Part shown: positions 39,629 through 43,707 of the stretch, piece by piece | Position numbering within the stretch: the first letter of the stretch is position 1 | How the letters are laid out: the number at the start of each line of letters is the position of its first letter | NCBI RefSeq assembly: GCF_013402795.1 | Contig: NZ_CP058595.1 | Location: 1,523,501 to 1,587,500, forward strand | DNA length: 64,000 bases | Source of the DNA: Costertonia aggregata | GTDB taxonomy: Bacteria > Bacteroidota > Bacteroidia > Flavobacteriales > Flavobacteriaceae | Reading direction: 5' to 3' | Translations under genes and position numbers: made by a program | The notes under the pieces: generated by a model | The model's input: only the letters and a program-made list of their open reading frames with translations | The model's database searches: none | Told to the model about the DNA's origin: nothing

Positions 39629-40552
39629 ATGAAGAGAAGAAATTTCATAAAAACTTCGGCCCTTACCAGTGGATCACTTGCACTCGGTGGGGCCTTTTCT
39701 TATTCCAAAACTGCCAGACCTGTAAAAGCACATACGTTCAATTTAAAATATGCCCCACATTTGGGCATGTTCAAGCATCTTGCCGGGAAAGACCCTATTG
39801 ACCAATTGCATTTTATGGCGGATCAAGGCTTTACCGCTTTTGAGGATAACAATATGCGTGAACGTGATATTGCCTTACAAGATAAAATGGCAAAAGCGAT
39901 GCAAGATGTAGGCATTACCATGGGTGTATTCGTGGCCCACAAAATCTATTGGAAAGAGCCTAACCTTGCTTCTGGCAATATTTCCAAAAGGGAAGAATTC
40001 TTGGGCTATATAAAAACATCCATAGAGGTTGCCAAACGTGTAAACGCCAAATGGATGACCGTTGTACCGGGTCATTTAGACCTAAAACAAAACATGGGCT
40101 ACCAAACCGCAAATGTGGTGGAAACGCTCAAACAGGCTTCTGCCCTATTGGAACCCCATGATTTGACCATGGTTCTTGAACCTTTGAATTTTAGGGATCA
40201 CCCCGGGTTATTTTTAACAAAATCTCCCCAAGCCTATGCTGTTTGCAAAGCTGTGGATTCCCCCTCCTGTAAAATTCTTTTTGATATTTATCATCAGCAA
40301 ATACAAGAAGGTAACCTTATTCCCAATATAGAGGCTTCATGGGATGAAATAGCTTATATCCAAATTGGGGACAACCCCGGAAGAAAAGAACCTACTACAG
40401 GGGAGATAAACTACAACAATGTGTTTAAATTTATTCATAGTAAAGGTTTTGATGGTGTTTTAGGGATGGAACACGGCAACTCTAAACCGGACAAAGCTGG
40501 TGAGCAGGCCGTGATAGATGCCTATAAAAAAGTGGATGATTTTCTGCAATAA
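39629..40552 (+). CDS. Tat-exported hydroxypyruvate isomerase-like TIM barrel protein
   Basis: The 307-residue product has a twin-arginine signal (MKRRNFIKTSALTSGSLALG). The barrel includes QGFTAFEDNNMRERD, VNAKWMTVVPGHLDL, MVLEPLNFRDHPGLFL, CKILFDIYHQQIQEGNLI, YIQIGDNPGRKEPTTGE and GFDGVLGMEHGNS. The Glu/Asp/His/Glu pattern is that of hydroxypyruvate isomerase-like enzymes. It is the third isomerase-like protein of the locus and the second predicted outside the cytoplasm. It follows the subunit-3 gene by 48 bases. Confidence 0.9.
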   Translation: MKRRNFIKTSALTSGSLALGGAFSYSKTARPVKAHTFNLKYAPHLGMFKHLAGKDPIDQLHFMADQGFTAFEDNNMRERDIALQDKMAKAMQDVGITMGVFVAHKIYWKEPNLASGNISKREEFLGYIKTSIEVAKRVNAKWMTVVPGHLDLKQNMGYQTANVVETLKQASALLEPHDLTMVLEPLNFRDHPGLFLTKSPQAYAVCKAVDSPSCKILFDIYHQQIQEGNLIPNIEASWDEIAYIQIGDNPGRKEPTTGEINYNNVFKFIHSKGFDGVLGMEHGNSKPDKAGEQAVIDAYKKVDDFLQ

Positions 40553-40620
40553 CACGTTAGTTGGTATATTTTAATCCTCAAAATACACATGATATAATAC
40601 GTATTGAAACCAATCGATTT

Positions 40621-40668
40621 GCAGAAAAGTGTATTTCATCGGTTTTTTTAGCACTTTTTCGATGAAAT
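40621..40668 (+). other. Two crossing stems (pseudoknot or alternative hairpins)
   Basis: AAAAGTG (40625-40631) can pair with CACTTTT (40652-40658), and ATTTCATCG (40633-40641) with CGATGAAAT (40660-40668). The pairs cross, so they form either a pseudoknot or exclusive hairpins. A T7 run (40643-40649) sits in the loop. It lies about 50 bases before the first 28-codon ORF. Confidence 0.45.
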
Positions 40669-40716
40669 GCAGCTTTTCAATGTAAGATACTGACTACATT
40701 TTACGTTATTTGTAAC

Positions 40717-40803
40717 ATGACCCCCGATTTCTACGTACTTTTTGCTTATGCTATGTTGTTGTTAGTTTCCAAAATAGTCTACAGACACTATTTCAAAAAC
40801 TAA
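40717..40803 (+). CDS. 28-aa single-helix membrane peptide (micro-ORF 1)
   Basis: ATG at 40717 to TAA at 40801-40803. The peptide starts MTPDFYVLFAYAMLLL and ends in the basic tail YRHYFKN: one hydrophobic helix with positive charges at the C-terminus. It has exactly the same length as micro-ORF 2 and shares nine of 28 positions with it without gaps (M1, L8, Y11, L14-L16, S18, Y25, K27). Two such ORFs by chance in one gap are unlikely, though composition bias inflates the match. Small respiratory-type subunit or type I toxin-like peptide are possible roles. Confidence 0.5.
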   Translation: MTPDFYVLFAYAMLLLVSKIVYRHYFKN

Positions 40804-40829
40804 TACGCACTATTGCCACACAGTGATGG

Positions 40830-40853
40830 TTTTCATGCACTAGTGCATGAAAA
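40830..40853. other. Perfect 24-bp palindrome between the two micro-ORFs
   Basis: TTTTCATGCACT (40830-40841) is followed directly by its reverse complement (40842-40853). It may be a transcription end for micro-ORF 1, an operator, or an RNA processing site. No T-run follows. Confidence 0.7.
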
Positions 40854-40865
40854 TATTGACAAAAA

Positions 40866-40898
40866 TTTGTCTTGACCATTATCTAAAAGTTATGTTTG
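40866..40898 (+). promoter_or_regulatory. Full Bacteroidota-type promoter for micro-ORF 2
   Basis: TTTG at 40866-40869 and TATGTTTG at 40891-40898 are separated by 21 bases, matching the -33 TTG / -7 TAnnTTTG consensus and its usual spacing. The predicted leader to the ATG at 40959 is about 55 bases. This is the best complete promoter match I found in the window. Confidence 0.6.
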
Positions 40899-40958
40899 AG
40901 TAATCTTTTTGTGTAGTTCGTCCGTATATTATTACAGAACCCCGATAAAAATACCGAG

Positions 40959-41045
40959 ATGGATAATTATATTATTTTTTTGATTGTATACGGAACGTTA
41001 CTTTTATCCTCTTATGCCATTACAAAAACATATCTGAAAAAGTAG
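40959..41045 (+). CDS. 28-aa single-helix membrane peptide (micro-ORF 2)
   Basis: ATG at 40959 to TAG at 41043-41045. The peptide starts MDNYIIFLIVYGTLLLSS and ends with the basic tail KTYLKK. It has the same length and layout as micro-ORF 1, with the shared core Y-x-x-LLL-x-S and a final aromatic-x-Lys. A full-consensus promoter lies upstream, which supports expression. It is 172 bases from the 3' end of the convergent nrdA gene. Confidence 0.55.
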   Translation: MDNYIIFLIVYGTLLLSSYAITKTYLKK

Positions 41046-41217
41046 TTTCTCCTTAGTTCAAGAACCAAACCATCTCTTTTGAATGCTACTTGTGTGTAGC
41101 TTTATATTATAATCGTTTCATACAAACAAAAACACCTTTTTCATGCCAAACGGAACAGGGCAATCCAAAGGTGCTTTTCATAAATATAAACACTAATTTT
41201 TCTAGGGACTCAAAAGC
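41046..41217. other. Gap between micro-ORF 2 and nrdA
   Basis: I see no gene and no strong terminator here, although micro-ORF 2 and nrdA converge on it. Confidence 0.5.
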
Positions 41218-43707
41218 TTATGAGCCGCACATAAGGCAATCATCATCAGCTTGGCCTTCTTTTGCACGTGCTATCATTTCCTTCATTTCAGCAGGTGTCA
41301 TAGGCTGTATATCCGATTCTTGCGTTTGTGGGGTTATCGCTGTTGCCTTTACTTCCATAGCGGAAGCATCTTTATCAGATGGTGCAGTAGCGATAGCTTC
41401 TGCTTCGGCAGCAACACTTACAGGAGCCGCTTTCTTTTTGCTATTGTCCAATGTGAATTTTATCGCATCTACCGCAGCTTTGGTCCTTAAATAATACATT
41501 CCTGTTTTTAGACCGCTTTTCCATGCGTAAAAATGCATGGAAGTCAACTTGGAATAGTTTGCGTTCTCCATAAACAAGTTAAGGGATTGGCTCTGGTCGA
41601 TAAAGTATCCTCTGTGTCTGGACATATCAATGATATCCTTCATGCTGAGTTCCCAGACCGTTTTATACAAGTCCCTAATATCTTGGGGTATGGTTTCAAT
41701 ATGCTGTATAGATCCGTTGGCACGCATTAATTCCTGTTTCATGTTCTCGTTCCATAAACCTAATTCAACCAGATCTTCCAATAAGTGTTTGTTCACAACG
41801 ATAAACTCACCGGACAATACCCTTCTCGTATAAATATTTGAAGTATAGGGCTCAAAGCATTCATTGTTCCCTAAAATCTGTGAGGTAGATGCCGTTGGCA
41901 TCGGCGCCACAAGTAAAGAATTACGAACCCCGTTCTTTTTTACGTCCTTTCTTAACTTTTCCCAATTCCAACGTCCCGAAAGCTCTTCGTCCTTGATACC
42001 CCAAAGATTGTGCTGAAATTCGCCATTCGCCATGGGAGAGCCTTTGTAAGATGAATAGGAACCCTCTTCTTTCGCCAATTCCATAGAGGCGGTAACCGCA
42101 GCAAAGTAGAGTGTTTCAAAAATCTCTTGGTTAAGTTTTTTGGCAGCATCGCTCGTAAAGGGCAAACGCAACATAATGAAGGTATCTGCCAAACCTTGCA
42201 CCCCAAGGCCGATAGGCCTATGACGCATATTCGAGTTTTCTGCCTCTTTTACGGGATAATAATTTCTATCGATTACCCTATTCAAATTTTTGGTGACCCG
42301 TTTGGTTACCTTAAACAGCTCCTTATGGTCAAACGCACCATTTTTCACGAACATGGGTAACGCAATGGATGCCAAATTACATACAGCGACCTCATCGGGC
42401 GAAGTGTATTCCAGAATTTCCGTACATAGGTTTGAAGAACGTATGGTACCCAGGTTTTTTTGGTTACTCTTACGGTTGGCAGCATCTTTATAGAGCATGT
42501 ATGGTGTTCCCGTTTCAATTTGGGATTCCAATATTTTTTCCCAAAGTTCGCGTGCCTTTACGGTTTTTCTTCCTTTACCGGCAGCTTCGTAACCTGTATA
42601 CAGTTTTTCAAACTCATCGCTGTGGCACTCAAATAGCCCAGGGCATTCATTAGGGCACATAAGTGTCCATTCCTCATTGGTTTCTACCCTTTTCATGAAG
42701 AGGTCAGAAATCCACATGGCATAGAACAAATCGCGAGCACGCATTTCTTCTTTGCCATGATTTTTTTTCAAATCCAAGAACTCAAAGATATCCGCATGCC
42801 ATGGTTCCATATAAATAGCGAAACTGCCTTTGCGCTTTCCACCACCTTGATCTACGTACCTAGCAGTATCATTAAATACCTGCAGCATAGGGACAATACC
42901 GTTAGATGTACCATTGGTTCCGGCAATATAGGAACCTGTGGCCCTTACATTGTGAATTGACAGCCCTATGCCACCGGCAGATTGGGAAATTTTTGCAGTT
43001 TGCTTTAAAGTATCGTAAATACCATCAATACTGTCATCTTTCATCGCCAAAAGAAAACAGGAGGACATCTGTGGTTTTGGCGTACCGGAGTTGAAAAGTG
43101 TGGGAGTAGCGTGTGTGAAGTACTTTTTGGACATTAGCTCGTAGGTCTCGATTGCCGAGTCCAGATCATCCAAATGAATACCTACGGAAACGCGCATCAA
43201 CATATGCTGTGGACGTTCGGCGATCTGGCCATTTAACTTTAAAAGATAGGAGCGTTCCAACGTTTTAAAACCGAAATAGTCGTAGCCAAAATCCCGGTTA
43301 TAAATGATAGTGGAATCCAATCGTTCCGCATTTTCCTGTATCACTTTGTATACTTCATCGGATAACAAAGGGGCTTTTTTTCCCGTTCTTGGATTTACAT
43401 ATTCGTATAGATCCTTCATGGTTTCCGAGAAGGATTTTTTTGTGTTCTTATGTAAGTTGGAAACAGAGATACGGGCTGCTAACTTGGCATAATCGGGATG
43501 CGTTGTCGTCATAGTAGCCGCAATCTCAGCCGCTAGATTATCCAGTTCGGAGGTCGTCACCCCATCATAAAGCCCTTCAATGACACGCATGGCCACTTTT
43601 AGCGGGTCTACCAACCCATTAAGGCCATAACATAATTTTCTAACCCTGGCCGTGATTTTATCGAACATGACCAGTTCTTTTCGTCCGTCTCTTTTTACTA
43701 CATACAT
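41218..43707 (-). CDS. nrdA: Ribonucleoside-diphosphate reductase, large subunit (class Ia)
   Basis: The 829-residue subunit reduces NDPs to dNDPs. An ATP-cone ([18 protein letters not shown] onward, about 1-90) gives allosteric activity control. The active site holds Cys217 (SSCFLLAM) and Cys443 (VAVCNLASI) as the redox pair, and Asn426-Cys428-Glu430 (SNLCTEI). The tyrosine dyad lies in [12 protein letters not shown] near 745. The tail is Ala/Lys-rich, unusually long and low in complexity, and ends with CLMCGS carrying the mobile redox Cys pair. It follows nrdB by 125 bases, with a terminator-like hairpin between them that may lower nrdA expression. Confidence 0.97.

Follow-up and report, generated by a model that had tools for sequence, protein, structure and literature searches.

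The window (64,000 nucleotides of Costertonia aggregata, contig NZ_CP058595.1) contains two short open reading frames in tandem, located between a gene for a xylose isomerase-like TIM-barrel protein (39629–40552, + strand; PF01261) and the convergently oriented nrdA gene for the large subunit of ribonucleotide reductase (41218–43707, − strand; PF02867, PF00317 and PF03477). The two frames, A (40717–40803, + strand) and B (40959–41045, + strand), each comprise exactly 28 codons plus a stop codon, as an earlier reading made from the sequence only had described them. Their predicted products, peptide A (MTPDFYVLFAYAMLLLVSKIVYRHYFKN; basic C-terminus) and peptide B (MDNYIIFLIVYGTLLLSSYAITKTYLKK), are both 28 aa long with one TM helix and share nine identical residues in register, compared with a mean of 4.2 upon zone-wise shuffling of B (P = 0.004). 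A terminator-like hairpin is located 40 nt 3' of B (41085–41100, + strand). An Rfam search of the window gave no match, and a DNA similarity search returned solely short dispersed motifs.

Peptide searches with A and B in 249 genomes of the family retrieved homologues at the same place. In 52 of the 53 distinct loci read, all from the Maribacter/Zobellia/Eudoraea part of the Flavobacteriaceae, B lies beside a convergent nrdA, usually 80–420 bp from the nrdA stop codon (1.2 kb in one case). Slightly fewer than half of the 53 loci have a match to the A motif upstream of B, and one locus (L097) carries three peptides in tandem. Matches of B within long proteins (L019, L026, L027 and L030) represent unrelated hydrophobic stretches and were rejected as fusions. 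The 3' untranslated sequence of nrdA just past the stop codon (~75 bp) is near-invariant in six Eudoraea-type genomes (L094, L102, L107, L125, L136 and L155).

A codon-pattern scan (M-D-[NK]-Y, six hydrophobic residues, Y) across the genomes of 84,980 species matched 77 stretches. Those within the Flavobacteriaceae group each form the start of an open frame of 27–28 aa with the C-terminus of the family, and the named hosts are Zobellia, Eudoraea, Maribacter, Muriicola, Saonia, Kriegella, Pricia, Ulvibacterium, Croceitalea and Aurantibacter. Outside this group, frame lengths are scattered (11–308 aa) and C-termini unrelated, except for one loose look-alike on a Clostridium contig (L130). Matches in 296 genomes of the order were confined to the same family, bar one weak one.

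Extra matches of the A profile at another locus, outside the window, revealed a third paralog, C (G000:C1:2044448–2044531, − strand; E 1.6e-15 in the own genome), with the consensus MDxYIITLGTYLILMLFFKVYFAVAxKE. It is located between uvrC and the gene for 5-formyltetrahydrofolate cyclo-ligase, ~35–60 nt before the latter and on the same strand (L239–L247). In E. coli, this position beside the cyclo-ligase gene is that of 6S RNA (ssrS-ygfA), a likeness which is probably coincidental. About 69 of the 397 family genomes have a strong-score C match. Of the 39 genomes having B at E ≤ 0.001, 38 contain such a match; by the same tally, nine genomes contain C without B. The A, B and C profiles can be aligned over their entire length at scores of 36–38, compared with at most 28 in column shuffles retaining the composition (120 per profile pair, none of which reaches the observed score), i.e., their similarity extends beyond hydrophobic composition. 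Common to the family are an M-x-x-Y-x3-L-x2-Y core, a single TM helix and a length of about 27–37 aa; the A peptide of C. aggregata itself has D4 in place of Y4 and retains L8, Y11 and L14. As shown by computation, A, B and C share ancestry. Comparison with Pfam, NCBIfam and PADLOC families yielded no match above cut-off, comparison with PDB chains none at all, and literature searches found no description of such a microprotein family. This family of about 28-residue single-helix membrane microproteins in marine flavobacteria is undescribed.

Substitution patterns address the coding status of these genes. Within genus-level groups, the pN/pS ratio of B ranges from 0.03 to 0.17, reaching 0.26 in the most distant group, and that of A from 0.11 to 0.57 (0.59 in a distant pair). 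For C, a comparison across genera gives 0.14, its synonymous sites being close to saturation. Differences among B genes are distributed over codon positions 1/2/3 as 143/62/509. Homologues and purifying selection, two of the properties on which the proposal of a peptide pair had been made to depend, were both found. Short open reading frames are common and the expected noise of such frames in this region is high, so one could consider A and B to be chance frames, their conservation reflecting an RNA or DNA element instead. However, the excess of third-position differences, amino acid conservation across genera, the fixed length and the conserved start and promoters all speak against this explanation, which is refuted by the codon-level pattern and retains practically no probability. 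Owing to their conservation, A and B stand far beyond chance frames, and it is almost certain that A, B and C form one family of genuine protein-coding genes. In footprints of the relatives, the conserved blocks are restricted to three places: the open reading frames, the promoters and the 3' end of the nrdA region.

The paralogs have separate, conserved promoter regions. Upstream of B, an ECF-sigma-like promoter is formed by GTAATC (40900–40905) and CGTATA (40923–40928) with 17 bp in between (+ strand), and GTAATC-N17/18-CGTATA precedes B in about 49 orthologs with the constant 17/18-bp spacing. RTAATC-N17/18-CGTATA has one other match only in the own 3.9-Mb genome, and a relaxed search pointed to one plausible further site before the gene of a multi-pass membrane protein (L205). 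In Flavobacterium psychrophilum, a CGT box at −10 (SM6) was assigned to ECF sigma factors (PMC9723704), and motif resemblance suggests the B promoter to be of the ECF-sigma type; SM6 differs, however, in being associated with genes of type IX secretion. The upstream regions of the sigma-factor genes of the own genome contain no GTAATC-N17/18-CGTATA, and GTAACA...CGT boxes are present there. One of these genes, encoding a second 287-aa primary-type sigma factor (L172; G000:C1:650552–651229), is preceded at ~40 nt by GTAACA-N16-CGTATA, a sequence similar in form to the promoter of B.

Two other elements between A and B had been highlighted by the sequence-only reading. The string proposed as a full −33/−7 promoter of B, TTG-N16-TATGTTTG (40872–40898, + strand), is indeed present but probably incidental, since a comparable TTG...TAnnTTTG string occurs within 160 nt upstream of B at only about 4 of 53 loci, while the orthologs conserve GTAATC/CGTATA just downstream. 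Similarly, the perfect 24-bp palindrome TTTTCATGCACTAGTGCATGAAAA (40830–40853) exists as described, but it has no second copy within 3 mismatches in the own genome, is unique to this genome and not conserved in relatives, and was therefore rejected as a functional part.

The promoter of A consists of GTAAGA (40682–40687), N16 and CGTT (40704–40707) on the + strand, 13 nt before the ATG. Since 23 of 24 A genes have a CGT[TC] box only 12–16 nt ahead of their ATG, the predicted mRNA leader of 0–4 nt suggests a nearly leaderless transcript; in F. psychrophilum, only 5.5% of mRNAs are leaderless (PMC9723704). Further upstream, a LytTR-like half-site is present once per strand, TGTATTTCATCG (40630–40641, + strand) and the inverted TGCATTTCATCG (40660–40671, − strand), and nowhere else in the window. 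The two half-sites, 30 bp apart, form a strong dyad (z −4.8). The corresponding hairpin (40617–40690; z −4.8) could alternatively be an RNA structure located where the upstream gene ends.

LytTR operators are composed of two repeats of 9–11 nt with 11–13 nt between them (PMC4847170), an arrangement from which the inverted half-sites of A in the window, at 30 bp distance, deviate. TGCATTTCATCG half-sites resembling such operators are carried by many A genes as well as by C. Most C paralogs have a half-site about 79–87 nt upstream; it lies at about −84 and is often accompanied by another at about −63, forming a putative LytTR operator in many C genes. Among 30 C upstream regions, 28 contain a half-site with at least 10 of 12 matches, vs 0.5% of shuffles. 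The half-site of C, TGCATTTCAT, repeated at a period of about 21 bp, is similar to the LytTR repeat of YpdB, GGCATTTCAT (PMC4847170). Judged by this motif resemblance, the half-sites of A and C may be sites of LytTR regulators. Elements of the form TGTATTTCATCGG-TTTTTTTT-GCATTT recur in other flavobacterial genomes (L005, L006, L007, L010 and L011), beside a PorU-like gene in L011 and a PorX-like regulator in L007, and possibly represent a LytTR operator shared with genes of type IX secretion.

A, B and C are very probably one-helix proteins of the inner membrane. Because the charge of all three peptides increases toward the C-terminus, an N-out/C-in topology is expected. The most conserved positions of A and B are Y4, L8, Y11, L14/15 and S18, and conservation shows a weak helical periodicity near 102 degrees (P about 0.02 for each peptide). 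No such periodicity is apparent in C, which is too conserved to display it. The charge trend together with the periodically conserved positions of A and B favours packing against a partner helix. Accordingly positioned residues could allow the peptides to act as separately induced regulatory or accessory peptides that contact a partner TM helix via their conserved face, a role to which we assign an even chance.

This role has to be weighed against several known types of small membrane proteins. The main rival, tentative in our judgement, is a stress-induced, membrane-perturbing peptide of the YohP/TisB kind without antitoxin, which would act on the bilayer and lower membrane potential and metabolism in starvation without any protein partner. 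Such action would agree with the size, the single hydrophobic helix, the basic C-terminus and the separate, apparently stress-type promoters. It has a counterpart in the 27-aa YohP of E. coli, which is linked to starvation and lowers the membrane potential (PMC12719787). YohP and the present family have in common their length, a single TM helix, encoding by an independent small gene and apparent regulation by stress, but no established sequence link. Moreover, Y4, L8 and Y11 are conserved at fixed positions throughout the three paralogs and in many genera, which exceeds what general hydrophobicity would require. YohP is not known to have this motif or a set of paralogs. Another alternative is a structural component of a transport or respiratory complex; a small subunit of this kind, like CydX or KdpF, would share size, topology and conserved helix face with the family. 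CydX-type subunits, however, are usually encoded in the operon of their complex, whereas A and B are solitary genes with unrelated neighbours (nrdA and the TIM-barrel gene), outside any operon with a membrane complex; considering also the lack of family or PDB matches, this assignment is improbable.

Least credible among these roles is a family of type I toxins, as suggested by the sequence-only reading, with tandem duplicates like those of Ldr, Ibs and Zor. TisB, ZorO, IbsC and LdrD are likewise small and hydrophobic, some of them in tandem, and ZorO was found by a search using tandem duplication as criterion (PMC8309996). The present family differs from these toxins in its vertical, syntenic inheritance and in that B and C are under strong purifying selection; C also had no match in plasmid and phage collections. 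Footprints outside the open reading frames and promoters contain no conserved block for an antisense RNA, a result with which a short antisense RNA inside a frame would be compatible. Since no such block was found outside frames and promoters and inheritance is vertical, A and B are unlikely to be type I toxins, a reading of very low probability.

In the favoured case of partner-helix packing, each peptide would be made from its own small transcript once a particular regulator fires: B would be switched on by an ECF sigma factor, A via its ECF-like promoter and LytTR-type sites, and C by a LytTR-type response regulator at a TAnnTTTA-type promoter. Following presumed translation, each peptide would sit N-out/C-in in the cytoplasmic membrane, where the face formed by Y4, L8, Y11, L14/15 and S18 would pack against a partner TM helix, conferring a regulatory or accessory subunit role. 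This partner could be a membrane complex common to the paralogs or a further member of the family, and the paralogs would then represent condition-specific versions of one small subunit. Going further, one may speculate that the three paralogs, under different regulators (ECF sigma, LytTR or both) and with A leaderless, serve a single membrane complex as interchangeable subunits, each specific to a condition, a doubtful proposal.

Annotation often overlooks genes of such small size, and the present family lacks a Pfam or NCBIfam model although it is conserved in many genera of marine flavobacteria. Since Zobellia and Maribacter are culturable hosts carrying it, the family is amenable to experiment. 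It also poses the question of why one cell would maintain three copies under different switches. The nested distribution, with C being the most widespread and B nearly always accompanied by C, together with distinct promoters and a common helix face, may offer a compact system for the study of how tiny membrane proteins choose their partners.
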